Positions 6,806-64,000 of a DNA stretch of 64,000 nt are shown here, piece after piece. Origin of the DNA: Cedecea neteri (GTDB taxonomy: Bacteria > Pseudomonadota > Gammaproteobacteria > Enterobacterales > Enterobacteriaceae). The notes under the pieces are model-generated. The model was not told where the DNA came from, ran no database searches, and saw nothing but the letters and a program-made list of their open reading frames with translations. Position 1 is the first letter of the stretch. Each line of letters starts with the position of its first letter. Position numbers and translations under genes: made by a program. The stretch covers positions 496,001 through 560,000 of the forward strand of contig NZ_CP009451.1 of the NCBI RefSeq assembly GCF_000757825.1, read 5' to 3'.

Positions 6806-6823
6806 CAACAATAAGGAGCGTTT

Positions 6824-7729
6824 ATGAGACTGCTTTCACGCGTGCTGACGGCGGCGTTTGCCGCAGCATCACTTATCGCCTCACAGGCCCAGGCCGCGCC
6901 GCTGATTCTGGCGACCAAGAGCTTTACCGAGCAGCATATTTTGTCGGCCATGACCACCCAGTATCTGGCTAAAAAAGGGTTTCAGGTTACGCCCCAGACC
7001 AACATCGCGACGGTGATTTCTCGTAATGCGATGATCAATAAACAGATTGATATGACCTGGGAGTACACCGGTACTTCGCTGATTATCTTCAACCATATTA
7101 ATAAGCGCATGACGCCCGAAGAGTCGTACAACACGGTCAAAAAGCTGGATGCAAAACTTGGCCTCGTCTGGCTTAAACCGGCCGAAATGAATAACACCTA
7201 CGCCTTCGCCATGAAGCGCGAGCGGGCAGAAAAAGAAGGCATCACCACGATGTCGCAGCTGGTAGAACGCATCGAGCATATTCGCCAGACCGACCCGAAA
7301 CATAACTGGATGCTCGGCCTTGATCTCGAATTCGCCGGACGCAGCGACGGCCTGAAGCCTCTGCAACAGGTTTACAACATGCCGCTGGACCGCCCGCAGA
7401 TCCGCCAGATGGACCCAGGCCTGGTCTATAACGCCATCCGCGACGGTTTTGTCGATGCCGGTCTGATCTACACCACCGACGGCCGGATGAAGGGCTTTGA
7501 CCTGAAAGCGCTGGTTGACGATAAGGGCTTCTTCCCAAGTTACGCTGTCACGCCCGTCGTGCGTAAAGACGTACTGGACTCTCATCCCGGGCTTGAAGAA
7601 GCGCTGAACACCCTTTCGTCCGAGCTGAACAATGAGGTGATAACAACCCTGAACGCCAAAGTTGATATCGACCATGAAACCCCGCAGCAGGTCGCTCGAG
7701 AATTCCTGCAGCAGAAAGGCTTGCTCTAA
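6824..7729 (+). CDS. osmX: Osmoprotectant ABC transporter substrate-binding protein OsmX
   Basis: A 301-residue periplasmic binding protein of the OpuAC/glycine-betaine family. The signal peptide ends at about residue 24 (AQA), with no lipobox. [10 protein letters not shown] is the N-terminal signature of this family, and MTWEYTGT and GLIYTTDGR are typical ligand-lobe segments. It should deliver betaine-like solutes to the OsmW/OsmY permease pair. The start is ATG 6824 with AAGGAG upstream, 18 bases after the first permease gene. Confidence 0.9.
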
Positions 7730-9692: not shown

Positions 9693-10949
9693 ATGCTTCG
9701 CCGCCTGGTGATTGCGATCTTTATTGGCCTGGCCTCCGCGCTGGTTGTGTGGCTATTTCGTCAGGCTATGTATCTGCTGGAAAACGTCTTCCTGGGCGAC
9801 CACGGCGGCAGCCTTGTTGCGGCGGCGTCCGCGCTCGCGCCATGGCGACGCGTATTAACACCTGCGGCAGGCGGCCTGCTGGCCGGGCTTCTGCTATGGG
9901 GCTGGCAGAGAGCTACCCGCCAGCGCCCTTCTGCGCCAACCGACTATATGGAAGCCATTGAAACAGGCGACGGCAGGCTGGACGTTCCTTCCAGCCTGGT
10001 CAAATCCGCCGCATCGCTGATCGTCGTGTCAAGCGGCAGCGCCATCGGCCGTGAAGGGGCGATGATCCTGCTGGCAACGGTTTTTGCCTCCGTATTTGCG
10101 CAGCGCTTTACCCCAGACAAAGAATGGAAGCTATGGGTGGCCTGCGGAGCCGCCGCCGGGATGGCAAGCGCCTACCATGCGCCGCTGGCGGGCAGCCTGT
10201 TTATCGCGGAGATTTTATTTGGCTCGCTGATGCTTGCCTCGCTGGGGCCGGTGGTGATTGCCGCCGTCAGCGCCCTGCTGATGACCCACCTGCTGAACGG
10301 CGGCCAGGCCCCGCTGTACATCGTCACCCTGCTCGATCCGCCTTTGCCTGCCCATTACGGGCTTATGGCGCTGCTCGGGTTAACGGCGGGTGTCGCCGGG
10401 CCGCTCATGCTGTGGCTGCTGGCCAAAAGCAGCGCGCTATTTCGCGGTCTTCGGCTGTCGCCGCCGCTGCAGCTGGCGCTCGGCGGGCTGATTGTCGGCC
10501 TGCTCTCGCTGGTGACGCCAACCGCCTGGGGCAACGGGTACAGCGTGGTGCAGTCGTTTCTTTCCAGCCCGCCCGCGCTGCTGTTTGTGGCGGGCGTATT
10601 GCTGTGCAAGCTGCTGGCGGTGATGGCAAGCAGCGGCTCCGGGGCACCGGGCGGCGTCTTTACGCCAACGTTGTTTATGGGCGCGGCGCTGGGCATGCTG
10701 TTTGGGCAGATTTGCGGGCTTTGGGGTGGCGGCGAACCGCTGATTATCCTGCTGGGGCTAACGGGAATGGCGTCTTTGCTGGCGGCGACCACGCATGCGC
10801 CGATTATGGCGACGCTGATGATTTGCGAAATGACAGGGGAGTTTACGCTGCTCCCCGGTTTACTGCTGACCTGCGTTATCGCCTCAACGCTGTCGCGCTG
10901 GTTACGCCCGCAGTCGGTCTACCGTCAGAGCGTTGCGCAGCCTGGATAA
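9693..10949 (+). CDS. clcB: ClC-family chloride transporter ClcB
   Basis: A 418-residue membrane antiporter of the ClC family, matching E. coli ClcB in length from this start. The selectivity motifs are present: GSAIGREGA with the gating Glu near residue 120, and [12 protein letters not shown]. coli ClC proteins exchange two Cl- for one H+ and support extreme acid resistance. The preferred start is ATG 9693 (MLRRLVIA, as in the E. coli protein); ATG 9657 would add 12 residues. The 3' end overlaps bioD2 on the other strand by 48 bases, so the last 16 codons of both genes share DNA. Confidence 0.92.
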
Positions 10950-11597
10950 ATCGATATACGCGCCCAGCTCGCGCTGTTCTGCTCGGGGTAGATACGGTAG
11001 CTCACCGACCAGCGGCCCTGGCAGTTTCTTACTCAGCACCTCGATGATTTCCGCGTAGTGCGCCAGGCCTGGGTTAATGCGGTTAGCCACCCAGCCAATG
11101 AACGGCAGCCCGTCATTAGCAATCGCCTGCGCGGTCAGTAAAGCGTGATTGATGCAGCCTTCCTGAATGCCCACCACCAGCAGCACCGGCAGTTGCTCCT
11201 GAACAACCCAGTCAGACAGCGGGCGCAGATCGTTCATCAGGCTACGCCAGCCGCCCGTGCCTTCCACCACGACGTGGTCCATTTGGTCGGAAAGCCTTTG
11301 CAGCCCGCTCGACAGCAGCGAATAGTTAATCGGCCCGTGATGGCTGATGCTGCTCTCTTCTTCGCTCAGCGCAATGGGGTTAATGGCTTCGTAAGGCAGT
11401 TTGATCGTCGAGACGCTTTGCAGTACCAACGCATCCCTGTTGCGCAGCCCCTCTGGCGTCTCTTTACTGCCCTTCGCGACCGGTTTGTAACCGACGACGC
11501 TTTTCCCGCTGGCCGACAACGCCTGCAGCAAGGCTCGTGAAACCACCGTCTTCCCCACGGCGGTATCGGTACCTGTTATAAAGAAACGCTTAAGCAT
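10902..11597 (-). CDS. bioD2: Dethiobiotin synthetase paralogue BioD2 (YnfK)
   Basis: A 231-residue ATP-dependent carboxylase-type ligase that closes the ureido ring of dethiobiotin from DAPA, CO2 and ATP. The P-loop GTDTAVGKT starts at residue 9. KPVAKGS and the VVEGTGGW switch are characteristic. It corresponds to E. coli ynfK/bioD2, next to clcB and mlc, and is the second BioD of enterics; the main bioD belongs to the bio operon. The ATG start at 11597 is preceded by GGGAGACAGTC. It overlaps the end of clcB tail to tail. Confidence 0.9.
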
Positions 11598-11719
11598 GAC
11601 TGTCTCCCGAGGTAATGCTAGCCATATAAGTAAAGAGAAAAATTAACTCGGGAAGTCTAAAAGAATGGCGCTTTAGCCAGATTGAGATAGCGCAATTTTT
11701 GGTGAATCAGGGCCTAAGA

Positions 11720-12937
11720 TTAGCCCTGCAGCAGGCGAATTAGTAAAGAGCCGTTATACATTGCGTCTTTAACCAGCGCCGCCCCGGCCATGGTGCCGCG
11801 GTTATTAAACTGTGTGCCTTCCACCACGGTGTGGCTGCTGTAGGCGGGTAAGGCCTGCTGGCGGATACAGTCGGTGATGGCCGGATGAAGGATCGCGGCG
11901 GCGCGATTAAGTGGCGAACCGATAAGGATCTTTTGCGGGTTAAACAGGTTAACCATGATGGCCAGAATGCGCCCAACGTTTTGCCCGACGCCGGTGATAA
12001 TGTCTTTGGCCAGCAGATCACCGTTCAGCGCGGCGTCGCACAGCGATTCCACGCTCAGCGGCTGGCCGTGCAACATCGAGCCCATAGACTGGCTCATACG
12101 CTGCTGCGCCAGTTCCAGCACGCTTTCCACGCTGGCGATAGTTTCCAGACAGCCGTGGTTGCCGCAGTAACAGCGTTTGCCATACGGGTCGACCTGCGTA
12201 TGGCCAATTTCCACCAGGCTGCTGCTGCCGGCGTGAAGCAGGCGGCCATCGGTGATAACCCCGGCCCCCACGTTATGATCAATCACTACCTGAATGACGT
12301 CTCTGGCTCCCTGAGAGGCGCCAAAAAGCCCTTCTGCCATGGTCCACGCGCTGATGTCGTGCTGGATAAATACCGGCACGCCGGTGTGCTTCTCCAGCGC
12401 CTCGCCCAGCGGCATATCGCAGATGTCGTAGAACGGCATGCGATGAATAATGCCGTGCACGGTATCAATAATACCAGGGAGCGTGATAGCGATGGCGGTA
12501 AGACGTTCGAGCTTATGCTGATGGCGAATAAAGAACTGGTCAACCTGGTAAACGATGCGTTCCAGCAGAGGCTGCTGGTCATCCGTCGGGAGGTCCACCG
12601 AGTCTTCTACCACCAGCTTGCTGCTGAGGTCGCGCAGGCCAAGGGAGATTTCGCCCCGGCTCAGGCGTATGGAGAGGTAATGCCACGCTTCGGTTTCCAG
12701 CATCAGGCCGACCGCAGGGCGGCCCCGGCTGCCGGGATCCTGGATTTCCGTTTCCTGTACCAGATGCGCCTCAATCATTTCTCGCACAATCTTGGTGATA
12801 CTGGCCGGGGCCAGCTGCGCCAGGCGGGAAAGATCGATCCGCGACACCGGGCCGTGGGTATCAATCAAGCGATAAACAACGCCGGCATTGGTTTGTTTAA
12901 TCTGATCGATATGGCCCGGTTGACTATCAGCAACCAC
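11720..12937 (-). CDS. mlc: Transcriptional repressor Mlc (DgsA), ROK family
   Basis: A 405-residue ROK-family repressor. An N-terminal winged helix (ISRIDLSRLAQLAPASITK region) binds DNA, and a sugar-kinase-like fold with the zinc motif CYCGNHGCLE follows. Mlc represses ptsG, ptsHI, manXYZ and malT in E. coli and is sequestered at the membrane by unphosphorylated PtsG. The length and sequence match the E. coli protein (406 residues). A likely Mlc/NagC-type operator lies just upstream of its start. It sits between bioD2 and ynfL as in E. coli. Confidence 0.95.
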   Translation of the reverse strand: MVADSQPGHIDQIKQTNAGVVYRLIDTHGPVSRIDLSRLAQLAPASITKIVREMIEAHLVQETEIQDPGSRGRPAVGLMLETEAWHYLSIRLSRGEISLGLRDLSSKLVVEDSVDLPTDDQQPLLERIVYQVDQFFIRHQHKLERLTAIAITLPGIIDTVHGIIHRMPFYDICDMPLGEALEKHTGVPVFIQHDISAWTMAEGLFGASQGARDVIQVVIDHNVGAGVITDGRLLHAGSSSLVEIGHTQVDPYGKRCYCGNHGCLETIASVESVLELAQQRMSQSMGSMLHGQPLSVESLCDAALNGDLLAKDIITGVGQNVGRILAIMVNLFNPQKILIGSPLNRAAAILHPAITDCIRQQALPAYSSHTVVEGTQFNNRGTMAGAALVKDAMYNGSLLIRLLQG

Positions 12938-12948
12938 GTGGTACTCCC

Positions 12949-12972
12949 TTTATTTTCGCGCTTCGAAATAAA
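12949..12972. promoter_or_regulatory. Mlc/NagC-like operator in the mlc leader
   Basis: An inverted repeat TTTATTTTCG-CGCTT-CGAAATAAA lies 12-35 bases upstream of the mlc start. AT-rich arms with a central CG-containing core are the general form of Mlc/NagC sites, and E. coli mlc is known to repress itself. Assignment to Mlc is inferred. Confidence 0.6.
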
Positions 12973-13062
12973 CTTTCAGGCTATGGTGAAACACTTCCCG
13001 CAGGGTCGTCAAATATTTAGGTAGGGATGTGATTTACCGCACATAATCCCGCCACATTAGGC

Positions 13063-13965
13063 CTATTTTAACGCCCAGGAGGCTTCGGTTAACAGCGCCG
13101 AGATACGCTTTGCCGCCTCCGACAGCTCCCGGTGCTTCGGCCAGACCAGCCAAAGTTCCGACTGCGCTTCCTGTTCGTCAATGGGCAGCCACACCACATC
13201 GCTCAGGCGAATGCGTTGAAACGAAGCAGGAAGAATCGATACCCCCAGCCCGGCAGAAACCAGACCAATGATGGTCATCGCCTCACCGACCTCCTGAGTG
13301 ATGTACGGCACGATATGATGACGTCGGAGTAAGCCGATAATGTCGTCGTACAGCCCGGTACCAACGTGCGGGTCAAAGAAAACAAACGGCTCCTGCGCAA
13401 GCTGCTTAAGCGATACCGAGCGGCTGCTGGCCAGCGGATGGTCGCGATGAACCATCGCCAGCAGCGGTTCACGCAAAATCAGCGTCCAGTTCAGGGTATC
13501 CGGCAGGCGCGTATTACGCATTAGCCCCAGCTCAAGCTCGCCCTCATTCAAAGGGGCAATTTGCTCGCGGGTATTCACCTCACGCATCTGGAGATGCACG
13601 TCAGGGTAACGCTTGCGAAAGCGGGACAGGCTGTCTGAAACTGCTTTAATAAACGGCGCGGAGGACGTAAAACCGATACGCAGTTCGCCGGTTTCCCCCT
13701 GATGCAGGCGTGCGGCACGTGCGGCAGAGGCATCAACCTGACTGAGAATTTGCCGGGCATCGCTGAGAAACTGCTGCCCCGCCGCGGTGAGGTTAACGCT
13801 ACGATTGGTGCGCGCCAGCAGTCGGGCACCGATTTGCTCTTCGAGGATTTGAATTTGCTGGCTAAGCGGCGGCTGGGAGATCCGCAGCCGGGCAGCCGCC
13901 CGGCCAAAATGCAGCTCTTCGGCGACGGCGACAAAATAGCGAAGATGGCGCAGCTCAATATTCAT
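13063..13965 (-). CDS. ynfL: LysR-family regulator YnfL
   Basis: A 300-residue LysR-type regulator: N-terminal winged helix (residues 1-60, AAARLRISQPPLSQQIQ) and a C-terminal two-lobe effector domain. It matches E. coli YnfL over its length, including FVFFDPHVGTGLYDDI. It is divergent from the MFS exporter gene ynfM across a 99-base AT-rich gap, the usual arrangement for a LysR regulator and its target. The effector is unknown. Confidence 0.92.
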   Translation of the reverse strand: MNIELRHLRYFVAVAEELHFGRAAARLRISQPPLSQQIQILEEQIGARLLARTNRSVNLTAAGQQFLSDARQILSQVDASAARAARLHQGETGELRIGFTSSAPFIKAVSDSLSRFRKRYPDVHLQMREVNTREQIAPLNEGELELGLMRNTRLPDTLNWTLILREPLLAMVHRDHPLASSRSVSLKQLAQEPFVFFDPHVGTGLYDDIIGLLRRHHIVPYITQEVGEAMTIIGLVSAGLGVSILPASFQRIRLSDVVWLPIDEQEAQSELWLVWPKHRELSEAAKRISALLTEASWALK

Positions 13966-14064
13966 ATGTTTAAAGTATCATTTGAGATTATTAATATATT
14001 AGACAGAACATTTACACTTTTCTACTCTGTAAAGAATAAGTTAACGCCCGCGTAAGGATTTATC

Positions 14065-15315
14065 TTGAGTCGTACAACTACCGTCAGCACCGCCCCGACA
14101 GAGGATGCCGACGAAAGCCCTGCATCTCACTCTGTCAGCTATATCAAACGAGGTACTCCCCAGTTTATGCGCGTCACGCTGGCGCTGTTTTCCGCCGGCC
14201 TTGCTACCTTCGCCCTGCTTTATTGCGTGCAGCCTATTTTGCCGGTGCTATCCCATGAGTTTGGCGTCAGCCCGGCGAGCAGCAGTATCTCGCTCTCGGT
14301 CTCTACCGCCATGCTGGCCATTGGCCTGCTGTTTACCGGCCCACTTTCGGACGCCATCGGCCGTAAACAGGTGATGGTGACCGCGCTGCTGCTGGCCTCC
14401 TGCTGTACCCTGCTGTCGACGCTGATGACCAGCTGGCACGGCATTCTTATTATGCGCGCCCTTATCGGCCTCTCTTTAAGCGGCGTTGCGGCAGTCGGCA
14501 TGACCTACCTTAGCGAGGAGATGCACCCCAGCGTGGTGGCCTTCTCGATGGGCTTATACATTAGCGGGAACTCCATCGGCGGTATGAGCGGCCGCCTTAT
14601 CACCGGCGTCCTGACCGATTTCTTTACCTGGCGCGTGGCGGTGGCGGCTATCGGCTGTTTTGCCCTCGCCTCGGCGCTGATGTTCTGGAAAATATTGCCC
14701 CAGTCCCGGCATTTCCGCGCATCCAGCCTGCGGCCAAAAACGCTGTTTATTAACTTCCGCCTGCACTGGCGTGATGAAGGGCTGCCGCTGCTGTTTGCCG
14801 AGGGCTTCCTGCTGATGGGGGCGTTTGTCACGCTGTTTAACTACATTGGCTATCGGATGATGGAAGCGCCGTGGTTCCTCAGCCAGGCCATTGTGGGCCT
14901 GCTCTCCGTGGCCTACCTCACCGGCACCTGGAGCTCGCCAAAAGCGGGCGCCATGACCGCGAAATATGGCCGTGGCCCGGTGCTGATTGGCTTCACCGCC
15001 ATTATGTTTCTTGGCCTGACGCTGACCGTCTTCTCCTCGCTGATCGTCATTTTTGCCGGGATGCTGCTGTTCTCTGCGGGATTTTTTGCTGCCCACTCGG
15101 TTGCCAGCAGCTGGATTGGCCCACGCGCCCGGCGGGCAAAAGGCCAGGCCTCCTCGCTTTATCTGTTTAGCTATTATCTTGGCTCCAGCCTCGCGGGCAC
15201 CCTCGGCGGCGTGTTCTGGCACCAGTTTGGCTGGAACGGCGTAGCGGCATTTATCGGCTCGCTGCTGCTGGTGGCTTTGCTGGTCGCCACGCGTTTGCAC
15301 CACAAGGCACACTAA
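14065..15315 (+). CDS. ynfM: MFS transporter YnfM
   Basis: A 416-residue inner-membrane transporter with 12 predicted segments and the MFS loop motif GPLSDAIGRKQVM. It resembles E. coli YnfM strongly (KRGTPQFMRVTLALFSAGLATFALLY, SYYLGSS). The start is TTG at 14065: it gives SRTTTV, as in the E. coli protein, and has AAGGAT six bases before it. Substrate is unknown; arabinose or drug efflux has been suggested for the family only. Probable target of the divergent YnfL. Confidence 0.9.
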   Translation: MSRTTTVSTAPTEDADESPASHSVSYIKRGTPQFMRVTLALFSAGLATFALLYCVQPILPVLSHEFGVSPASSSISLSVSTAMLAIGLLFTGPLSDAIGRKQVMVTALLLASCCTLLSTLMTSWHGILIMRALIGLSLSGVAAVGMTYLSEEMHPSVVAFSMGLYISGNSIGGMSGRLITGVLTDFFTWRVAVAAIGCFALASALMFWKILPQSRHFRASSLRPKTLFINFRLHWRDEGLPLLFAEGFLLMGAFVTLFNYIGYRMMEAPWFLSQAIVGLLSVAYLTGTWSSPKAGAMTAKYGRGPVLIGFTAIMFLGLTLTVFSSLIVIFAGMLLFSAGFFAAHSVASSWIGPRARRAKGQASSLYLFSYYLGSSLAGTLGGVFWHQFGWNGVAAFIGSLLLVALLVATRLHHKAH

Positions 15316-53753: not shown

Positions 53754-54380
53754 ATGTCAAGCACAATACCTTATCAAGCCGTGTCTCGTTTAGGGAATAA
53801 GATTAAAAATCACAAAAACACTTTAAAACTTTCTGTAGGTTCAAATAAAAACATCAACTTCGAGCCCTTTGGAAAAAAATGCATTATTTACTTAGACGAA
53901 GGTAGCATTAGCTTACATCGTAAAAAAGACAGCGTATTACTTTTTAAGTTTGACTCGCCATTCATCGTCGGTCTTGACCAGTTGTTTTTTAGCACGGAAT
54001 ATTATTACATCACTCCAAATGATAATGTTTCACTGTATTTGTTATCACATGAGGACGCTATTGAGATATTTGATAAAGATAAGTCGTGGAAGGATATAGC
54101 ACAATTAATGAGCTATTTCATGGGGCTTAATGAACATCGTAGCCACAATCTGGCAGAAAACAGAAGCGTTTATGACATAATTAAAATTCATCTGGAGATA
54201 ATTTGGGCATTACCTGAGGCTGAGCGAGAAAAAACCTCAGTATTTGATTATATTCTCAAAAGACATAAGATATCCAGAAGCTCGATCGCTAAAATAATAA
54301 AAGAATTAAACAATGGAAATTATATCACAACAAAACGCGGCGTATTAATTAACTTCAATAAGCTACCATCAAAATTCTAA
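53754..54380 (+). CDS. IprA-like winged-helix transcriptional regulator
   Basis: A 208-residue protein resembling the IprA/YaiV type of CRP-like regulators: an N-terminal beta-barrel (FEPFGKKCIIYLDEGSISLHRK, FDSPFIVGL), a helical linker, and a C-terminal winged helix (VFDYILKRHKISRSSIAKIIKELNNGNYI) ending in INFNKLPSKF, like the LISINRLPSEY ending of YaiV. No cyclic-nucleotide pocket is obvious. It converges on the EAL gene with a 12-base tail overlap. It is likely a local regulator of the adhesin island. Confidence 0.75.
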   Translation: MSSTIPYQAVSRLGNKIKNHKNTLKLSVGSNKNINFEPFGKKCIIYLDEGSISLHRKKDSVLLFKFDSPFIVGLDQLFFSTEYYYITPNDNVSLYLLSHEDAIEIFDKDKSWKDIAQLMSYFMGLNEHRSHNLAENRSVYDIIKIHLEIIWALPEAEREKTSVFDYILKRHKISRSSIAKIIKELNNGNYITTKRGVLINFNKLPSKF

Positions 54381-55136
54381 ATCATCCATTTCCATAAAAC
54401 GCAGAAACTCATGTTTCAATAAAGGTTTCGATAGAAAAAAGCCTTGAAACAAACATGGGTTTCTTTTAAGAAGTGAGTATTGAGCATCAGTTTCTATATT
54501 CTCAATCACTGCAATGGCATTAATACTGGCTATTAAAGACAAACACCCCGTTACAATGGATAGCGATCTTTCATTTGAGTCAATTTCATTTAGCAAATCA
54601 CCAGATAACTTCACATAGTCAAAATGATATTTTGAAAGAGTATCAATGTTACTGTAGCCGGAACCAAAATCATCAAGGGACAATGCCAGTCCCATAACTT
54701 TCAATCGATTGAACAACTGCACCATTTGTTTATGATTGGGCAAAGGATAACGCTCGGTAAGCTCCAGGATAAAATTAATATTTTTCGGCATTCCCTGCAC
54801 TAACGAAAAGATATCGTTAATAAAAAACTGACTTTGAAAGTGTAAACCAGACACATTCAAGCTAATGCTAATATCTTTCATTACTGACCATGACTTAACA
54901 TCATCCCTGACCAAATGAAAAAGATGTAAAGTCAAAGGAATTATACAGCCAGATGATTCCGCCTGAGAAATAAATTCAAGCGGGTTTATTTCCACGCCTG
55001 CATTATTTCTCCAACGTAAAAAAACCTCTACGCAGTCAAACAACTGCGTCACATTATTATATATAGGCTGATACATAACATAAAACTCACCGTTATTAAT
55101 AGCTGAGTAAATCTTTCTTTTTGATAAAAAACTCAT
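54369..55136 (-). CDS. Stand-alone EAL-domain protein (putative c-di-GMP phosphodiesterase)
   Basis: A 255-residue EAL domain with no sensor or membrane part. The signature motif is EVF (Glu37 kept, AL changed), but the other catalytic positions are intact: Asn in LNVSG, Glu in ELTER, Asp-Asp in LDDFGSGYSN, Lys in VKLSGD, Glu in IENIE and Gln in FQGFF. Activity is therefore plausible, though a degenerate binding role is possible. It is the last gene of the adhesin operon, 52 bases after the LuxR-type gene, so c-di-GMP turnover is tied to adhesin expression. Confidence 0.85.
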   Translation of the reverse strand: MSFLSKRKIYSAINNGEFYVMYQPIYNNVTQLFDCVEVFLRWRNNAGVEINPLEFISQAESSGCIIPLTLHLFHLVRDDVKSWSVMKDISISLNVSGLHFQSQFFINDIFSLVQGMPKNINFILELTERYPLPNHKQMVQLFNRLKVMGLALSLDDFGSGYSNIDTLSKYHFDYVKLSGDLLNEIDSNERSLSIVTGCLSLIASINAIAVIENIETDAQYSLLKRNPCLFQGFFLSKPLLKHEFLRFMEMDDLEF

Positions 55137-55188
55137 TGCATAACCTCGACAAAACTTTTAACTAAATCTACATGCTGCTCGCTAGCGA

Positions 55189-55746
55189 CTAAGTTAAAAA
55201 AATCCGCATATTTCTTATTTGCTGAACTTTATTATACATACCAACAACGTTGCTAACGTTTAGTTTCCTCATAATTTCAGAGCGACAATAATAAACACTC
55301 TTCATCGAAATATTAAGAATCGTTGATATAGAAGAAAAAGAATAATTTTCCATAATTAATGTTATTAACATTGTCTCTCGATGAGAAAAAAAATCCTTGT
55401 ACATGCAGTTATGTATTAGCGAACCCCCCTCATCACTATTAGTAAAAGCCACTTTAAGATCATCATACAACTGTTCACAAGATCCTTTAGCGACAACATA
55501 TATTGCACGACTACTCCCCCCTGGTATTTGGAACAATTTAAAATCATTTTTATGATCCATTAAAATAACGATCAAAGCATCATCATCGAATTTCTGTGCC
55601 TTACTTATTTGATAACAATTTTCAGGTTCGACTAGAATAACTACGGAATATCTCTCTGGTATAAGGTGTTCAAGATTATTTATAATAGTAGCTACACCTT
55701 TGGCTAAAAAAAAATTTGCGCCAACGAATATAATTTCCTTTAACAT
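55189..55746 (-). CDS. LuxR-type HTH regulator of the adhesin operon
   Basis: A 185-residue regulator. The N-terminal 115 residues resemble a receiver-type alpha/beta domain without an evident phosphorylation pocket. The C-terminal LuxR HTH reads FFSHRETMLITLIMENYSFSSI, then ILNISMKSVYYCRSEIMRKLNV. It is similar in build to FimZ/CsgD/RcsB-like regulators of surface structures. Its ATG is one base after the stop of the second MotB-like gene, so it is in the same transcript. Confidence 0.8.
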   Translation of the reverse strand: MLKEIIFVGANFFLAKGVATIINNLEHLIPERYSVVILVEPENCYQISKAQKFDDDALIVILMDHKNDFKLFQIPGGSSRAIYVVAKGSCEQLYDDLKVAFTNSDEGGSLIHNCMYKDFFSHRETMLITLIMENYSFSSISTILNISMKSVYYCRSEIMRKLNVSNVVGMYNKVQQIRNMRIFLT

Positions 55747-55747
55747 A

Positions 55748-56509
55748 TCACTCTGTCCCTAAGATATATATTTTACCACCCGCCGCATCTACCTTCCCGC
55801 CATAGATGCTTATAGAAATGTTTTTATTAGGCACATCCTTATCCAACAAGACATTTCTCACCGCCATAATTCGCAAATAAGTTAATCGGTTTGAAACGGC
55901 AGAACTCGCCGATGAAACACCCCAAATGAGAACTTTTTGGTTATTGGCAAAACTTTGCGAAAACAAACTATTCAGTTCAGACTTCACTTCATCATCAATT
56001 ACAACAGTATCTTTAGGGTATAAAATAGCAAGCAGTTTATCTCTTTCCTTTTTCACAATAACTTTATCTATTACATTTTCGTTCTGAACGACTGGATCGC
56101 TAGTGACATTTACAATCAGAGTTTTTCCAGATGATGCTGAAGGTTTATCATTTTTTTGGTTAGATAAAGCCAGGTTATTTACATCATTAATTGCTGCACC
56201 TAAGGATGCCTTGGCTGGATCACCGTCCGCCCCTGCCTCGGATGAGGATTCATTCTTTGCCTCTACGCTACGGTCTTTGTTAATCATAAGGTCAACTCGA
56301 CTTTTGTAAGGTTCTTTATTCACCGCTGCATTTTCCAGCGAAGATTTGTTTTTATTATCCGCATTAATCACGCGTAGCCTCGAAGACTCCATACCTAATA
56401 CAAAGATAGCGATAGCGAATATCGCTGAGAGGAAGAGTAAATTTAAGACTAAATTCATTAGCGCATCAACATACCCTGGCCAGAAATCTATTTCTTCCTG
56501 CTTACTCAT
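55748..56509 (-). CDS. MotB/SiiA-like proton-channel subunit, membrane Asp present
   Basis: A 253-residue protein with one N-terminal membrane segment (about 12-40) and a periplasmic remainder. WPGYVDALMNLVLNLLFL places an Asp at 15, where MotB, TolR, ExbD and Salmonella SiiA carry their proton-accepting Asp. A low-complexity linker (60-150) leads to a C-terminal OmpA-like fold (LIWGVSSASSAVSNRLTYLRIMAVRNVLL) that may touch peptidoglycan. In SPI-4, SiiA and SiiB form a proton channel that controls the SiiE adhesin. The paralogue encoded just upstream lacks this Asp. Confidence 0.8.
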   Translation of the reverse strand: MSKQEEIDFWPGYVDALMNLVLNLLFLSAIFAIAIFVLGMESSRLRVINADNKNKSSLENAAVNKEPYKSRVDLMINKDRSVEAKNESSSEAGADGDPAKASLGAAINDVNNLALSNQKNDKPSASSGKTLIVNVTSDPVVQNENVIDKVIVKKERDKLLAILYPKDTVVIDDEVKSELNSLFSQSFANNQKVLIWGVSSASSAVSNRLTYLRIMAVRNVLLDKDVPNKNISISIYGGKVDAAGGKIYILGTE

Positions 56510-56533
56510 GATGCCTCACAAAAAATTAAAAAA

Positions 56534-57316
56534 TCACTCTATCGTGGGTTTATCATCCCTGATGAATTTAATCTTAACCGCATTTTGATTACTAACATCG
56601 GGAGACACGGGGATTAATTTGACAATGACTTTTTCCCGCTCGTAACCACTGTCAAGAAAATAATTACGTACTGCAAGTATGCGTATATAAGCAATACGCG
56701 ATGCAGTTTCAACATCAACCGAAGCTGATGCAGAGATGGTGACGCGATACCCCACGAGGTGTTGTTCAACTATGGTAGTTGACATTTTTTTTGCTGCCTC
56801 ACTCAGCTTGTAGATCCCATCGGAAAACTGATACGTGATATCTGAATCATCTTCACTTTTTCTTTCAGACAGCACTTTTCGATCGTTTTCAATAACTACG
56901 TGATTATTAATTGAACCTTCATTGCCCGGCATGTCTAGCAAAGGATTAGAACCCTTTTTTTGCAGGCCATTACTGCTCTCTTGCACTATGGAAAGTACGC
57001 GAACCGCTTCGCTACTCTTTAAATTCAACGCCGCATCACTGTTCCCTATATCTGCCACAGCAGTCGTTTTTTCTCCTTCGGATGCCGCCAGCTCTTTTTT
57101 ATCATTTTGAACCGCACCTCCTACCGGAGAGGTTAATTTTATGTCACCGTCGATGTTTGGCTTAAACCCCTGGACTATTTTCTCATGAATGCTTGCACCA
57201 ATTTGAAAAATCCCCAGACCAAGTACGGCGATAAGAAGCAACAAACTAATCCCCAGGCCGGCGACAGCTGCAACATAACCGGGCCAAACATTTGGCCCCC
57301 CACCAGATGTTTTCAT
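56534..57316 (-). CDS. MotB/SiiA-like subunit paralogue lacking the membrane Asp
   Basis: A 260-residue paralogue of the next gene, with the same layout. WPGYVAAVAGLGISLLLL aligns with WPGYVDALMNLVLNLLFL, but the Asp is Ala (residue 16). The periplasmic part ends in a similar OmpA-like domain (VTISASASVDVETASRIAYIRILAVRNYFL). It should not carry protons by itself. A mixed dimer with the Asp-bearing paralogue, around a pentamer of the MotA-like protein, is the simplest model. It lies 9 bases after the RTX gene and 24 before its paralogue. Confidence 0.78.
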   Translation of the reverse strand: MKTSGGGPNVWPGYVAAVAGLGISLLLLIAVLGLGIFQIGASIHEKIVQGFKPNIDGDIKLTSPVGGAVQNDKKELAASEGEKTTAVADIGNSDAALNLKSSEAVRVLSIVQESSNGLQKKGSNPLLDMPGNEGSINNHVVIENDRKVLSERKSEDDSDITYQFSDGIYKLSEAAKKMSTTIVEQHLVGYRVTISASASVDVETASRIAYIRILAVRNYFLDSGYEREKVIVKLIPVSPDVSNQNAVKIKFIRDDKPTIE

Positions 57317-57325
57317 ATGATGTCT

Positions 57326-60322
57326 TTAAACAATAATCGTACCGTTGCTAATTAATGTATGGATATCCGTGGGCAGCGTATTAACATTTGTTAAAAATAT
57401 AGTTTGGCTATTCGTGCCCGGACCATTGCCATCTACGTCAATAATAATCGCTGTCCCTGTTTTTCCACTATCCCAACCCAGTGTGCCAGCCTGAGTTGTG
57501 TTATTACGAATACTGACGATCCATTGGCTGATGTCACTAGTGTCTTTGTTATATCCTTCCAGTAATTGTGAAATATCTATGCGGTCACCGTTAGTACCAT
57601 CCCAAACCTGGAAGTCACGGATCACATCAACAGAACTCCCCGTAGCATCGCCACGTTTCCAAACGAATAAATCATTATCGTTTACGTTAGTAAGATTTTG
57701 ACCATTAAACCAGCCAGTGCCGCCGCGACCATACATAATATCGTTGCCCCGGCCTCCGGTAATAATATCGTTACCCCCGCCACCCATGATGTAATCATTA
57801 CCTGCGCCACCATTTATAATATCATTACCCCGCCCCATATCCTGGGTAAACATGAGTCCGGTGCCACTGAGAAACTGGCTTCGTGCATCCGCAACGGTGG
57901 AGCTTACAACGCCGCTGTTGTTAAAAGTTGAGGAACCATTCGCACCGACGTCCGTTTCAGCGACATAGTCATTTATACTGCTATTTTGGACCCCCCAGCC
58001 GCCGCCATTACCTCCTCCGGGATTTCGAGTTGGGCCTAAGGTTGTTCCGCTACTACCAACGGTATTCCCCCCCCCGGCCGCTGCGCCAAGCCCACCCGCG
58101 AAACCGCCGCTGCCACCATACACGCCGCCGCCGCCGCCGCCGCCATATCCGCCAATACCATTCGAACCACTCCAACCGGAGAAACCATCACCGAATATAA
58201 TATCGTCTCCCTCTCCGGCATCTATGTAATCATCTCCACCTCCGGCAAGGCCACCTCGGGAGTTCCCACTCGGATCACCGGCATAAGGGTGTCTCCCGCC
58301 GCCTCCGCCAGAACCATCGCCAAATATCAGATCGCCTTGTGCGGTACCGACAATATTATCGTTACTGCCGCCGCCATTTCCTCCAGCATAGGAACTGCCG
58401 CTTGTCCATTTTGAACTGCTCCCGCCATTACCAGACCCGTCGGCCCAAATAATCATTGCGTTATCACTGGACTTAAACGACAGAGAATCATTGATTTTGA
58501 ATTCGGACTCGCTCCTTACTGAAGGCTGCGTAATGCTGTAATCCACGCGCGCGAAGCTCCCCTGCTGGTTAGCATCAGTCTGCGTATAAGCAATAGTCAC
58601 TCTGCCCAGCATAATATCTTCAAGTGTTACGCTGTTCGCCAGTACACCTTCTTTATAAACTAAGGTATTCGTTAAATTATAGAATGTTATTGTAATATTT
58701 TTAGGGAAATCGCTGGCCAGTCCAAAGTGGCCTGCTGTTAACGTTTCCGTAGCCCGCGAAGAGTTTATTAAAATATTATTATCCATCGCATCAATGCTGC
58801 TTCCGCTGGATAATAACAGCGCGACTTTATCAATAAACACTGGGGGATTAACATCAGCAATAATCACTAAGGGTTGCGTTGACCCCTGCTGGTTTCCAGC
58901 AACATCGGTAACGATCACTTGTAACCTGTTGGTGTCATTGGCACGAAGATTAACAGAGATATCCTGTTTATCTCCGGTCATTGTAAAGTTAGCCAACTCC
59001 TCCCCGGCATCGAATTTATTATTATTATTTAAATCATTAAAAACAATCGCCTGGCTTCCTTTTTCGCCACTTACCGTCACCGTGACCTTAGTATTATAAG
59101 TAATATTATCATTATTAATGCCGCTATCACTCCCAGGTGTTAATGTTACCTGAGAATCAGGCACGGTATTATCAATCGTAATATCCGCCAGCTTTGTCGA
59201 AGCACTTTGATTACCTGTAATATCTTCTTGTAAGACTTTCAGATTGTTATATTCACCTTGTGCAAGATATGCAACATCCACAACGCCTTGCGCACTCCCT
59301 TTTAGGGTTGTTTGTCCAATCAACTCACCTTCATCTAACTTGTTATTATTGTTGCTGTCATTATATATTTTAACTGTTGCTCCTAGCTCTCCTTTCACGT
59401 TAAAGGAGAGGTTATTTTTTGCCGTGATAAAATCATCATTTTTCACACCAGAATCTGATTTCTTATCAAGTAGTGCTTCAGCCACGTCGGGCGCAATGGT
59501 ATCTAACAAAAAATTTACCGCAGGCAAAACCTGTCCGGATGAAGTAGACCCCGTAACCACAATATTGCCTTGTCCCAATTGAGCAAGCTCTTCTGCCGTC
59601 AAAGTAATAGCAACGGGAAGCTCCGCGCCTGCCCCTGTTACCTGACGAGTTACAGTCCCATTGGTACCGGCAAATGAAAGTGATACGACGGTCCCTGAAG
59701 CTGCAACGACACTGACAACCCCGTCTGTCGACTGAGCCTCAATTGCATTCACACCGTCTATGCTTGCTTTGGTCAAATCCAATTTTGTCGGCACAGGCGT
59801 TGATGTTGGAGGAAGAGTAGTTGTTGTTGTTGCACCGCCGCTTTCGCCCCCTCCACCTCCGCCACCCAAGAAAACTCCCGCTACAGCCCCTACCGCTCCG
59901 ATGATAGTTGCTGTTGGAGCCCATTTAAGTATCGTCGCAAAAATACCATCTGGTGCCACTGCCGTGGACGTGGCATTCTCACTCACAGCGCTTGCAGATC
60001 CCGCAGTCTTATTGTCCGAAGCACCACTGTCACTGACCAGTACATCCTCATTAGATTGATCCGCACTCGCAACAGCCACATCACTTAATTCACTAACTTC
60101 CATTTTACCGGCCATGCGTAACAGCGCTGCGCCTTCGATCTCTTTGTCAGTAAATTGAATTTTAAATTGGCTATCAATCATTGACCTTAGCGCACCATCC
60201 TTGATTACTGCACGTTTCCCAGACCTTAAGGTAATAACAAGGTCGGTATCTGCTACTTTTATTTCTTTAACATCACTTAGGGCAATATTATTTAATGTAA
60301 TTTTCGTATCTGCGGTGGCCAT
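57326..60322 (-). CDS. BapA-prefix/RTX type I secretion adhesin
   Basis: A 998-residue surface protein. Residues 1-75 are a BapA-prefix-like domain (DLVITLRSGKRAVIKD). A hydrophobic segment (about 128-152) followed by a Gly7 run may hold the protein in the membrane. Ig-like repeats (about 165-560) contain EF-hand-like loops (NDSNNNNKLDEGE, NDLNNNNKFDAGEE). A Gly/Ser/Asn-rich region (about 630-800) leads to RTX nonapeptides (GGAGNDYIMGGGGNDIITGG, about 825-860), then the DLFVWKRGDA...DRIDISQLL segment and a hydrophobic tail, as in type I-secreted LapA/BapA proteins. No N-terminal signal peptide. It lies between MotA-like and MotB-like genes, so it is a likely client of that channel. Confidence 0.85.
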   Translation of the reverse strand: MATADTKITLNNIALSDVKEIKVADTDLVITLRSGKRAVIKDGALRSMIDSQFKIQFTDKEIEGAALLRMAGKMEVSELSDVAVASADQSNEDVLVSDSGASDNKTAGSASAVSENATSTAVAPDGIFATILKWAPTATIIGAVGAVAGVFLGGGGGGGESGGATTTTTLPPTSTPVPTKLDLTKASIDGVNAIEAQSTDGVVSVVAASGTVVSLSFAGTNGTVTRQVTGAGAELPVAITLTAEELAQLGQGNIVVTGSTSSGQVLPAVNFLLDTIAPDVAEALLDKKSDSGVKNDDFITAKNNLSFNVKGELGATVKIYNDSNNNNKLDEGELIGQTTLKGSAQGVVDVAYLAQGEYNNLKVLQEDITGNQSASTKLADITIDNTVPDSQVTLTPGSDSGINNDNITYNTKVTVTVSGEKGSQAIVFNDLNNNNKFDAGEELANFTMTGDKQDISVNLRANDTNRLQVIVTDVAGNQQGSTQPLVIIADVNPPVFIDKVALLLSSGSSIDAMDNNILINSSRATETLTAGHFGLASDFPKNITITFYNLTNTLVYKEGVLANSVTLEDIMLGRVTIAYTQTDANQQGSFARVDYSITQPSVRSESEFKINDSLSFKSSDNAMIIWADGSGNGGSSSKWTSGSSYAGGNGGGSNDNIVGTAQGDLIFGDGSGGGGGRHPYAGDPSGNSRGGLAGGGDDYIDAGEGDDIIFGDGFSGWSGSNGIGGYGGGGGGGVYGGSGGFAGGLGAAAGGGNTVGSSGTTLGPTRNPGGGNGGGWGVQNSSINDYVAETDVGANGSSTFNNSGVVSSTVADARSQFLSGTGLMFTQDMGRGNDIINGGAGNDYIMGGGGNDIITGGRGNDIMYGRGGTGWFNGQNLTNVNDNDLFVWKRGDATGSSVDVIRDFQVWDGTNGDRIDISQLLEGYNKDTSDISQWIVSIRNNTTQAGTLGWDSGKTGTAIIIDVDGNGPGTNSQTIFLTNVNTLPTDIHTLISNGTIIV

Positions 60323-60327
60323 ATTGT

Positions 60328-61701
60328 TTAATCTCTATCTACTGACATTGAAACAATTGTACGTAATTTAGCTGATACACCCTCAAAGGAGTAACGGCAG
60401 GCATTTAGCCCGTCGAGAATCATCGAAACTTCATTCCCAACAGAAAATACCTTCCCCTCTGATGCATCTAATGCTTCGGCTAACAAGGTATTGAACAACG
60501 CCATTTTTTCGCTTGAGGTGTTAATAGCTTTTAATATGTCATTATTTGAAAGTAACAATTTTGTATTTTGCCCTTGCTGCTCAGAACGCAAACTAGTGAG
60601 TTGCTCATTTATTTGCTGCCATGAATCAATCCAGTGGGAGCCAGAACTCAATACAGTTGTGAATTTTTTATCGATGAGGTTACGCTCATTGAGCGCCTTT
60701 GCGGTCGCAGTCATTGCCTCTGTGACTGCACTAAGCTGCTGGGTAACATTAAAGAATTTTGATAGTAAATCATCCTTGATCATTACCAACTGAACCATCT
60801 CTGAATCGCTCACCTGCGTTTTTTCATTTACCACCTGCAGAGCAGCATAATTCATGGATAACTTATCGAAGGTATCGAATGCCGTATCGTGAACCCGCCC
60901 CAGTAATGTGGTGGCAGTTTTCCCCACGGAGAGTACAACAGCGCCGAGTATCAAAGATCCCAACAAGCCATAAAGTGAAGCAACGAATGCAGTACCCATG
61001 CTCTTCATCGGAGCCTGAAGTTGCACAAGCATGGCACTAAACATTGCCGTTGGGTCACTATTATCCCCCCCGCCGGTTAACGCGGCGAAAAGTTTGCCCA
61101 AATCCTCAAGTGCGCCAAGCAGGCCGATAAACGTTCCCACCAGCCCAATGCCAACCAATGCTCCTGCAATAAAGCCCGGGAAAGAAAGTCTCTCGCCGAT
61201 CTCTTTTTCAGCATGCTCGACCTGACGCTGCAATTCATTTCGGTGATGATTTAAAGGATTTTCGACATAGCTGACTAATAAACCAAAGGCCTCTTTATAG
61301 GGCATCGCATGTGATAAACCATTGACCAGGGTGGCATATTGAGAACTATCGCTTCTACGCCATTTTCTGGCAAAAGAATCGTAGAAAAATAATTTTATTA
61401 ATGTCCACCCAGCCAAAACAATACCCATGATTAAAAAAGCAAAAATAGTATATACCAATGCCGGATGCGGCGTGGATTTTATAGATGAAACGATGTCATC
61501 AAGAAAAAGGAAAACACCGCCAGCAACCAACAAAATCACTGACCAGAAGGCCTTTATAAAATAAATAAAATATCTAACCCCAACACTAGCACATGCATAA
61601 AAAGCATCGAATCTCTTGAAAGAGAAGGTTTTCATCTTCTTAGCCCCAGCGAATACAAAGTAAAATAAAATGACAGGCACACTAACAACGCCGGCAGCCA
61701 T
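60328..61701 (-). CDS. MotA/SiiB-like proton-channel membrane protein
   Basis: A 457-residue inner-membrane protein. Two segments near 45-70 and 80-105 are followed by the conserved MotA/TolQ/ExbB pair: FPGFIAGALVGIGLVGTFIGL (about 174-194) and LQAPMKSMGTAFVASLYGLL (about 229-248). The C-terminal 190 residues are soluble and helical. The size and layout match SiiB of Salmonella SPI-4 (about 460 residues) better than MotA (about 295). It is first in the six-gene operon, 5 bases before the RTX gene. ZorA of the Zorya defence system has similar topology, but no Zorya partner genes are present. Confidence 0.82.
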   Translation of the reverse strand: MAAGVVSVPVILFYFVFAGAKKMKTFSFKRFDAFYACASVGVRYFIYFIKAFWSVILLVAGGVFLFLDDIVSSIKSTPHPALVYTIFAFLIMGIVLAGWTLIKLFFYDSFARKWRRSDSSQYATLVNGLSHAMPYKEAFGLLVSYVENPLNHHRNELQRQVEHAEKEIGERLSFPGFIAGALVGIGLVGTFIGLLGALEDLGKLFAALTGGGDNSDPTAMFSAMLVQLQAPMKSMGTAFVASLYGLLGSLILGAVVLSVGKTATTLLGRVHDTAFDTFDKLSMNYAALQVVNEKTQVSDSEMVQLVMIKDDLLSKFFNVTQQLSAVTEAMTATAKALNERNLIDKKFTTVLSSGSHWIDSWQQINEQLTSLRSEQQGQNTKLLLSNNDILKAINTSSEKMALFNTLLAEALDASEGKVFSVGNEVSMILDGLNACRYSFEGVSAKLRTIVSMSVDRD

Positions 61702-62087
61702 AATTAGGCAAGCTCATCAGACACTGATATATGTGATACTTAACAACACCCGCAATCACGATTATAACTTTGCAAGCAAGAAAATTCCTAGTCAGCTCGG
61801 GATGGATGAGTAATATTACACAAAACCCAATTACGCCCACGCAAAAAAAACACACCTCAGGAAGAGCATAACACCATGTTAAGAAAGGTTTTTTAATTTA
61901 AATAAACACTGCATTAGTACACATAACTTAAGACAAAAAGGCCGATCGCCAGAATGATCACTGATTCATTAATTGTTTAACATTTGTTTTGAGTTAGAAT
62001 GAATAAATAATACTTTGGATTTATGCAACATCTACAACTCCAAACATTTACCAACTTCTCTCTAATCATATAGAAGTGTATTTTTCT
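61702..62087. promoter_or_regulatory. Divergent control region of the two adhesin units
   Basis: 386 bases of AT-rich DNA between the minus-strand six-gene operon and the plus-strand giant adhesin gene. Both promoters must lie here. I see no clear operator, and no ORF worth annotating. Confidence 0.5.
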
Positions 62088-64000
62088 ATGAAGAAAACAT
62101 ATTCAGCCCGCCATAAAGAATCAATTGAAAAACCCACTAAGAATAGCCAGGAACAGATCATATCAGGTCCGGGGGCAGGACAAACCACCGTTACCCCTGG
62201 CTCTCATCTGATAACCCGTGAAGCAAAAAAAAACGTTGAGAATAAAGATGATCACGAGGGCTATAAAAAACTTGGATGGTGGGCTCTGGGTATTGGCGCG
62301 CTGGGTGGCGTTACGGCAGCGATATTGGGTGGTCATAGTTCAGGAGATGAACCACGCCCTGACTTGCCAGCCAGGCCAACGCCGCCTGAAGGTGTGATGG
62401 CGATACCCAGCGCAGAAATAACCGCGATCAATGATAATGTTGGCCCCATTATCGGGAATATTACAAGAGGTGGGATTTCAGATGATGCAAATCCTATATT
62501 AACAGGCAAAACCACAGCCCCCCTCACCGCCAGACAAACCATAAACATATTCGACAACGGTAATTTCCTCGGCAATGCCACTTTCGATGCTGCCACCCTG
62601 ACCTGGCGTTATGCTGATACCAGATCGTTGAAGAATGGTGTTAATCCGTCCTATACCGCTCAGGTTATCGATAGTGATGGCAGAGCGTCGCAGGTGAGTG
62701 AGTCTTATGAGATTCATATTGTCATTCTCCCCACCACGACCGCCAACATTAACAGTGTGGTGACTCATACTGGCACCGTCATGGAGAATGGCGGAGCAAC
62801 GAATGAGACAAGTTTACAGCTCTCTGGCTCGCTAAGCGCCCCACTGAAAGACGGTGAAACTGTTCGCATCTATGACGGCAAAACCTTCCTGGGAACGGCT
62901 ATCGTGGACAACATCGGGCAGACCTGGCGTTATACCGATGCCCGTACACTGAGCGACGGCGACAAACCATCTTACAACGCCCAGGTTGCCGATTCTGATG
63001 GGAATTTTAATTCATCCGGTGCGTCATGGAGTGTGTCTATAGATACATCCCCGCCTACGACAACGGCAACCGTGACCGGAGTTGAAGATGACGTTGGGAT
63101 TATTACCGGCAATGTTACGAGCGGCAATACAACCGATGACTCGCATTTATTTATCTCCGGGACGCTTAACGGCCCCCTTGTGGCGGGTGATACCATCCGC
63201 GTATATGACGGCACGACGTTTCTTGGTATGGCCAGCGTTGACAGGGTAAATCAAACCTGGACATATACTGACTCCCGTACCTTGGTTAACGGTGCCATCC
63301 CCTCCTATACCGCGCGAGTCACCGATGCCGCAGGAAATCAGTCCGCTGCAGGTGTGCCCTATAGCGTAACCATTGATACTTCTGTCCCAACTACCTCAGC
63401 AATAGTCACCGGCGTAGCTGACGACGCTGGGGTCATCACGGGTAATGTTGCTAGCGGGGGAACAACTGACGACACCAGTTTGGTTATTTCAGGTACGCTT
63501 AGCGCCGCAGCAGCAAACGGAGAGACCATTCGCATTTATGATGGCGCCACCTTCCTGGGCATTGCTACCGTTGATTTAAGCCACAATACCTGGCGTTATG
63601 CAGACACGCGAAGCCTGAAAAACGGCGCAGCGCCTTCTTATACAGCAAGAGTTGCTGATGCAGCGGGAAATATGTCTGACGCAGGTACGCCCTATAGCGT
63701 CACCATAGATACGACTGTCCCTGCCACGACAGCTACTGTTACCGGAGTAACGGATAACGTGGGTGCTGTCACCGGCAACGTGGCAAACGGCGGTACTACC
63801 GATGACACCAATCTGGTTATTTCAGGCACGCTTAGCAAAGTCCCCGCCTTACAGGAAACTGTGCGTATATATGACGGTACGACATACCTCGGCAATGCCA
63901 CGATTAATGTCAGCACTAGCACATGGAGTTACACCGATACACGAACTCTGACGAATGGCACGTCTCCCTCCTATACCGCACGGGTTGCAAACAGTATTGG
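62088..64000 (+). CDS. Giant Ig-repeat adhesin, N-terminal part (continues past the window)
   Basis: The frame is open from ATG 62088 to the window end: 637 complete codons with no stop. The N-terminus (MKKTYSARHKE...) is charged and not a signal peptide. Residues about 64-83 (LGWWALGIGALGGVTAAILG) form one hydrophobic segment, followed by a Pro-rich linker. From about residue 111, bacterial Ig-like repeats of about 110 residues follow one another, each with a VRIYDGTTFLG-like strand, TWxYTDxRTL and SYTARVxDxxGN. This is the build of BapA/SiiE-type giant adhesins exported by type I secretion. The start is weakly supported (AGAAG 12 bases upstream; GTG 62076 is the alternative). The C-terminal secretion signal and transporter genes should lie to the right of the window. 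Confidence 0.88.
   Translation, partial: MKKTYSARHKESIEKPTKNSQEQIISGPGAGQTTVTPGSHLITREAKKNVENKDDHEGYKKLGWWALGIGALGGVTAAILGGHSSGDEPRPDLPARPTPPEGVMAIPSAEITAINDNVGPIIGNITRGGISDDANPILTGKTTAPLTARQTINIFDNGNFLGNATFDAATLTWRYADTRSLKNGVNPSYTAQVIDSDGRASQVSESYEIHIVILPTTTANINSVVTHTGTVMENGGATNETSLQLSGSLSAPLKDGETVRIYDGKTFLGTAIVDNIGQTWRYTDARTLSDGDKPSYNAQVADSDGNFNSSGASWSVSIDTSPPTTTATVTGVEDDVGIITGNVTSGNTTDDSHLFISGTLNGPLVAGDTIRVYDGTTFLGMASVDRVNQTWTYTDSRTLVNGAIPSYTARVTDAAGNQSAAGVPYSVTIDTSVPTTSAIVTGVADDAGVITGNVASGGTTDDTSLVISGTLSAAAANGETIRIYDGATFLGIATVDLSHNTWRYADTRSLKNGAAPSYTARVADAAGNMSDAGTPYSVTIDTTVPATTATVTGVTDNVGAVTGNVANGGTTDDTNLVISGTLSKVPALQETVRIYDGTTYLGNATINVSTSTWSYTDTRTLTNGTSPSYTARVANSI
62418..64000 (+). repeat. 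Tandem Ig-like domain repeats of the giant adhesin
   Basis: About five units of about 320-330 bases begin near 62418, 62732, 63055, 63388 and 63718. The last three are the most alike (GNVxxGGTTDDTxLVISGTLS, YSVTIDTxVP), suggesting recent duplication towards the centre of the gene. The last unit is cut by the window. Confidence 0.85.

Follow-up and report, generated by a model that had tools for sequence, protein, structure and literature searches.

Here we describe a putative secretion-linked stator locus in a stretch of 64,000 nucleotides, hereafter the window, from the 4.88-Mb genome of Cedecea neteri (assembly GCF_000757825.1, contig NZ_CP009451.1, positions 496,001 to 560,000), which encodes stator genes together with a type I secretion system (T1SS) and giant adhesins. 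The locus carries one MotA-like ring subunit gene and two adjoining MotB/SiiA-like genes, here named A and D after the residue (Ala or Asp) that each product bears at the proton-carrier site of its membrane helix. Its features, in window coordinates, are as follows.

56534..57316, minus strand: MotB/SiiA-like subunit A gene, 260 amino acids (open reading frame, hidden Markov model, AlphaFold2 model)
57269..57271, minus strand: codon GCA, Ala16 of A, at the proton-carrier site (sequence, alignments)
55748..56509, minus strand: MotB/SiiA-like subunit D gene, 253 amino acids (open reading frame, member of the hidden Markov model seed, AlphaFold2 model, alignment)
56465..56467, minus strand: codon GAT, Asp15 of D, predicted proton carrier (sequence; Asp in other rows)
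60328..61701, minus strand: MotA/TolQ/ExbB-like ring subunit gene (Pfam, alignments, MotA tree)
57326..60322, minus strand: gene for a 998-residue T1SS substrate, between MotA and the MotB pair (domain searches)
55189..55746, minus strand: LuxR-type (GerE) regulator gene, one base past the D stop codon
54369..55136, minus strand: EAL-domain gene (cyclic di-GMP phosphodiesterase family)
62076..64000, plus strand: giant adhesin 1 gene (1836 amino acids), only its start inside the window

Transcription on the minus strand thus runs from MotA through the T1SS substrate, A, D and the LuxR-type regulator to the EAL gene. The divergent plus strand encodes adhesin-like proteins of 1836 and then 2146 residues, both with Ig-like repeats, the second lying past the window end together with TolC-like, ABC and HlyD genes (L020, G000:C1:558001-577900). 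The 998-residue substrate combines a weakly BapA-like prefix (sub-threshold) with Ig-like and RTX repeats and a C-terminal T1SS target domain.

The initial annotation had set Asp15 against Ala16 in adjacent paralogues, and this reading proved exact, with open frames at 55748-56509 and 56534-57316 and the two codons at 56467-56465 (GAT) and 57271-57269 (GCA). D consists of an N-terminal transmembrane (TM) helix bearing Asp15 within WPGYVD, a disordered linker, and an OmpA/SiiA-like periplasmic domain. A has the same overall build and keeps W-P-G-Y-V, with Ala16 in place of the Asp and zero acidic residues in the hydrophobic core of its helix (residues 11-40). The two proteins share 23% identity over 230 alignment columns (BLASTP E 5e-4), and a MotB hidden Markov model (HMM) seeded with 84 MotB-like proteins, every one with Asp and window D included, recovers A at E 3.6e-18, so their paralogy, also claimed at the outset, is by sequence comparison beyond chance; the corresponding value for D (1.5e-41) follows by construction from its place in the seed. 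In a 23-protein alignment, A is the sole row lacking Asp at the proton-carrier column. Pfam returned no family for A and a sub-threshold OmpA match only for D, while the best NCBIfam match of D, PRK09039, reached 35.6 bits over the N-terminal 90 residues (13.5 bits for A), failing the cut-off of 362; the longer-MotB MotA-MotB pairs from our class-level search resemble PRK09039 by motif only.

The periplasmic part of A retains features of SiiA, for which PMC12607715 gives R162 and R167 as required for peptidoglycan binding. Equivalent residues in an R-x4-R arrangement occur in both window proteins (R207/R212 in A, R208/R213 in D) and are the predicted peptidoglycan-binding pair; the arrangement is invariant in 30 of 30 chosen aligned relatives, and in the wider set of 23 rows, which includes more distant ones, near-invariance holds for the second Arg alone. 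The AlphaFold2 model of A (mean pLDDT 70, pTM 0.45) has a long helix (residues 11-50) followed later by a folded domain (150-253), and that of D resembles it (mean pLDDT 74). Against 989 aligned chains, the periplasmic domain of A placed SiiA (6qvp) first by Z score (13.9; root-mean-square deviation 1.9 Å over 101 residues), with the next-best chain at 11.6. We discounted a SiiA match obtained with profile A7 against PDB sequences (2.2e-15), as A7 includes SiiA-type rows; the four A sequences by themselves gave nothing credible against PDB sequences (one match, E 4), so the SiiA likeness of A rests on its predicted fold. Given the kept Arg pair, the HMM membership and this fold, A appears to have lost the proton carrier but little else of the family signature.

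How common such a pair is was assessed in 143 loci with a MotA-family gene, window included, by counting MotB-like matches at E 1e-4 lying up to 9 kb from MotA, with those also matching the MotA model set aside; the set is not fully independent, since two collections have certain records in common, and it also includes distant MotA pairs that lack a T1SS link. There was no MotB-like match at this threshold in 27 of the 143 (weaker ones exist in some, e.g., L173) and a single MotB-like gene in 111, with Asp in 110, among which L086 and L100 were read separately, and one unreadable (L076). Two MotB-like genes were found in five, four of which are Asp/Ala (the window, L204, L211, and L212) and one Asp/Asp (L192). 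The Salmonella loci L111 and L112 carry one MotB-like gene each, which bears out the earlier claim that the window differs from the one-SiiA system of Salmonella pathogenicity island 4 (SPI-4).

The genomes searched were samples, not all species. Window MotA was sought in 392 genomes of the family (17 matched, the window's own included; 18 neighbourhoods fetched) and 394 of the order (7 matched, own included; 6 fetched), alignment A2 in 369 genomes of the class (152 matched; 32 fetched), and MotB alignment A3 in 399 genomes of the order of Limnohabitans L064 (85 matched; 7 fetched), among which G1306 alone listed two neighbouring MotB-like frames. Twin-type MotA was then sought in sets of 98, 198, and 117 genomes, matching 7, 5, and 8, respectively; among the 7 in the first set, G1551 and G1550 gave new twins, and G1306 and G1136 were already in hand. 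The twin count leaves out the matched genomes G1565, G1566, G1597, G1628, G1633, and G1635 and the short loci of the 117-genome search. A contig scan with alignment A1 confirmed 114 loci, of which the best 80 were retained, though its pattern mismatches window MotA (IGLVGTF) and may miss close kin; the same scan with window MotA alone found no relative. Plasmids gave no match to the A and D genes (blastn) or to L211 MotA and a single Salmonella record for window MotA (tblastn, 28% over 35% of the query), and there was no match to window MotA among E. coli genomes (blastn) and no match among viral contigs.

The three other Asp/Ala loci (L204, L211, and L212) come from three genomes of one family of Burkholderiales (3 of 98 searched there) and share the order TolC-ABC-HlyD-A-D-MotA with one MotA, Ala in all three first genes and Asp in all three second genes, the A stop overlapping the D start as ATGA in each. 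With the window, all four loci found in the window-MotA clade therefore carry adjoining Ala and Asp MotB-like genes, A first, and the motif W-x-G-Y-V-A-A of A is kept in all four, so the Asp/Ala pairing, whose conservation was to be checked by aligning homologues, stands in this clade. Among 15 loci compared, window ABC (37-40%) and HlyD (40-42%) are nearest to these three and the window adhesin prefix to L211, where the substrate prefix (57326-60322) is 54% identical over 61 residues to the L211 adhesin; identity to the L211 counterparts is 25% for window A and 28% for window D. Adhesins begin with a window-like prefix (E < 1e-4) in 7 of the 15 loci (L211, L075, L084, L077, L064, L104, and L078). 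The adhesin-like neighbours of the Burkholderiales twin loci (L211, L212, L214-L216) are huge repeat proteins, that of L211 with ALTTAQ repeats (Pfam) and that of L214 a single open frame filling 20 kb; L204 (14943-16940) has a GT41 glycosyltransferase gene (Pfam) ahead of TolC.

The ring subunit itself falls below threshold in Pfam (MotA_ExbB 20.2 bits, cut-off 22.9), while alignments and tree put the 60328-61701 protein among T1SS-linked MotA-like proteins with a conserved TM3-TM4 core, its match to L204 MotA being 32% identity over 390 residues (1.4e-52). Only one MotA gene of this type was found in the window genome, and likewise one per genome in all four twin-clade genomes. In the MotA tree, L204, L211, and L212 are the rows nearest to window MotA, and the four twin loci form one clade (99/98), sister to L071/L075 (100/99). 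The MotB tree groups the four A proteins (93/87) and the four D proteins (95/88). The simplest history on these trees would be one duplication before the beta- and gamma-proteobacterial copies parted, with the Asp lost once, and since MotA, ABC, HlyD, and the prefix are nearest to the twins but TolC is not, we take the window and the Burkholderiales twins to share a homologous module, some parts of which have been exchanged. Two candidates did not survive: an acidic pair after TM3 of MotA (E199/D200), considered as compensation for the lost Asp, is also carried by single-MotB relatives, and a ZorAB anti-phage identity scored 14.5 bits with the ZorA model (cut-off 500).

Purifying selection acts on A between two of the Burkholderiales: in the L211-L212 pair, to which these values apply rather than to the window copy, dN/dS of A was 0.194 overall and 0.052 in the first 45 codons, which encode the membrane helix and are better conserved than the rest of A (93% identity), as compared with 0.212 and 0.076 for D and 0.125 for MotA, all being rough Nei-Gojobori values at high dS. 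Hence, the Ala-bearing helix is kept there and is not decaying. That A is a decaying, functionless duplicate is thus disfavoured and, to us, highly improbable: although it has lost a residue held essential in other stators and is only 23% identical to D, its frames are intact in all four loci, the family signature is retained, selection maintains it between L211 and L212, and it is present in both Enterobacteriaceae and a Burkholderiales family.

Several observations weigh against a single conserved Asp/Ala stator, and we gather them here. There are four Asp/Ala loci in all, three from one family; the motif Pro of A is Gln (WQGYV) in the three Burkholderiales; window TolC is nearest to L205 rather than to the twin loci; and by Foldseek E-value, SiiA ranks fourth among OmpA-like domains for the A model. 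In the MotB tree, the fork at which L075 D meets the A and D clades lacks resolution, and window A is a long branch. The approximately unbiased (AU) test rejects neither window A and D as sisters (p-AU 0.206) nor a clade made up of all six A and D proteins from Burkholderiales (p-AU 0.302), so that separate duplications with parallel Asp loss are an alternative history. Two cases that had been named in advance as refuting were also sought. The first, both paralogues with Asp, was found once, at L192 (G803:C24, 1672-4971; WPTSVD and WPGFVD), but its MotA and MotBs lie outside the window clade on long branches, suggesting a second, independent kind of twin-B stator. As for the second, regular loss of the Ala protein was unseen, but in the few cases at hand the L075 genome, a metagenome-assembled genome of the sister lineage of the twin clade, has D alone, while the L071 genome, a metagenome bin, gave no match to A queries and its locus no MotB-like match; either the twin clade acquired the Ala partner or L075 lost it.

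Three further loci deserve mention. At L192, a distant MotA and two MotB-like genes are followed by a TolC-like gene (named by eye). L106 encodes a 332-residue OmpA-like membrane protein without WPxxVD (6366-7364) just upstream of MotB(Asp) in a T1SS-MotA operon, which is possibly another non-Asp partner; as its match was weak (E 5.6e-4) and without the motif, L106 was not counted as a twin locus. At L205 (G1304), where a MotB-like gene stands without any MotA match in the 20 kb, the adjacent open frame (10708-14157) starts EAL-like and continues into Ig-like, T1SS adhesin-like sequence; it may be a real fusion or an assembly artefact.

Among known systems, the closest parallel is SiiA/SiiB of Salmonella SPI-4, which serves the T1SS for SiiE and, like the window, sets MotA-like and MotB-like genes beside a T1SS and giant Ig-like adhesins. 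The window has the ring protein, an Asp-bearing MotB-like D, a SiiA-like domain in the A model (with SiiA the closest chain by Z), the Arg pair at the R162/R167 positions of both A and D, and the T1SS/adhesin linkage, yet it lacks Asp in every B gene and a single SiiA gene per locus: the Salmonella loci have one MotB-like gene, with Asp, whereas the window has a pair of which one member lacks Asp, and LuxR and EAL genes as well. By analogy, the window system is probably related to and works like SiiAB without these two features. Single-MotB T1SS operons of beta-proteobacteria (Limnohabitans, Methylobacillus, Herbaspirillum), with MotB(Asp)-HlyD-MotA beside a giant adhesin, share the WPG[YF]VDA motif and the prefix-like adhesin start but have one MotB-like gene per MotA. 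AglR-AglQ-AglS of Myxococcus likewise joins one MotA homologue to two MotB homologues, but it serves gliding, not a T1SS, and both MotB homologues have the Asp that A lacks; in PMC9389320, AglQ and AglS both carry Asp and whether they form homo- or heterodimers is described as unknown. We found no report of a paired Asp/Ala MotB or SiiA in titles and abstract openings among the matches listed in one open-access collection.

We therefore consider it probable, with the co-complex and the proton flux inferred, that these genes make a MotA5:D:A stator in which one Asp alone carries protons and which powers the display of adhesins. A and D would be differing B-subunits within a common T1SS-linked stator of the type seen in SiiAB and MotAB, with five MotA-like copies surrounding a D:A heterodimer. 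The membrane Asp on D only would give one proton-binding site instead of two, and A would supply a second axle helix with an always-neutral Ala and also another domain for binding peptidoglycan. The adhesins that leave through the adjacent TolC-ABC-HlyD exporter would be what the motor works on, retaining or displaying them: in PMC12607715, SiiE secretion persists without siiA and siiB while invasion of polarised cells drops, which suggests action on the displayed or retained adhesin. Contact is perhaps made via the N-terminal prefix domain, a candidate because it is strongly conserved (54%) while A and D are only 25% and 28% identical; the adhesin prefix may be the target that the stator acts on.

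The rival that fares best, which we nonetheless hold unlikely, is that two homodimeric stators share MotA, MotA5D2 being the proton motor and MotA5A2 a non-conducting complex that tunes it by competing for MotA or for peptidoglycan or adhesin sites. The presence in all four genomes of one such MotA for a pair of B genes would fit this, as would the retention in A of most of the TM motif and of the peptidoglycan-binding arginines, but the A-D overlap in three loci and the order kept in four fit a fixed 1:1 partnership better. Still less plausible to us is that A, a MotB descendant that gave up its channel role, stands outside the MotA pore and serves as a membrane anchor that binds peptidoglycan, for assembly or as a clamp. 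The missing Asp and the Pro-to-Gln change in three loci point that way; a mere anchor, however, needs neither W-x-G-Y-V-A-A, kept in four of four loci, nor a helix whose first 45 codons are the most conserved of the gene.

Around the stator genes, GC content is 0.34-0.50 per kb across 53-62 kb as against 0.55-0.59 at 44-52 kb, and a protein A query matched one of eight genomes of the genus, namely the window's own; the stator/adhesin module therefore looks acquired. Directly behind the MotB pair lie the LuxR-type regulator and the EAL gene (54369-55746), the latter, from its spacing, probably in the same transcription unit, hinting at cyclic di-GMP control. The EAL protein has the signature EVF-LR, and its remaining EAL motifs look kept.

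The recurrence of the pair in distant bacteria suggests that the axle of the motor is uneven by design. Whether this is a natural 5:1:1 motor, with an obligate heterodimeric axle and one permanently neutral chain, in an adhesin-display module kept in beta- and gamma-proteobacteria, we regard as evenly balanced. In the general 5:2 motor model, as given in PMC9389320, two equivalent inner-dimer sites alternate in 36 degree steps of one proton each; if this turnstile model holds, one site would mean that a turn takes 5 protons instead of 10 and that a cycle spans 72 instead of 36 degrees. A conserved one-site motor would then test the need for two sites in the 5:2 model, and the axle would sit in the ring in one fixed, identifiable orientation, something that structural and single-molecule studies cannot get from homodimeric stators. 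If the D:A stator is real, the SiiAB type of adhesin-display motor would reach beyond Salmonella.
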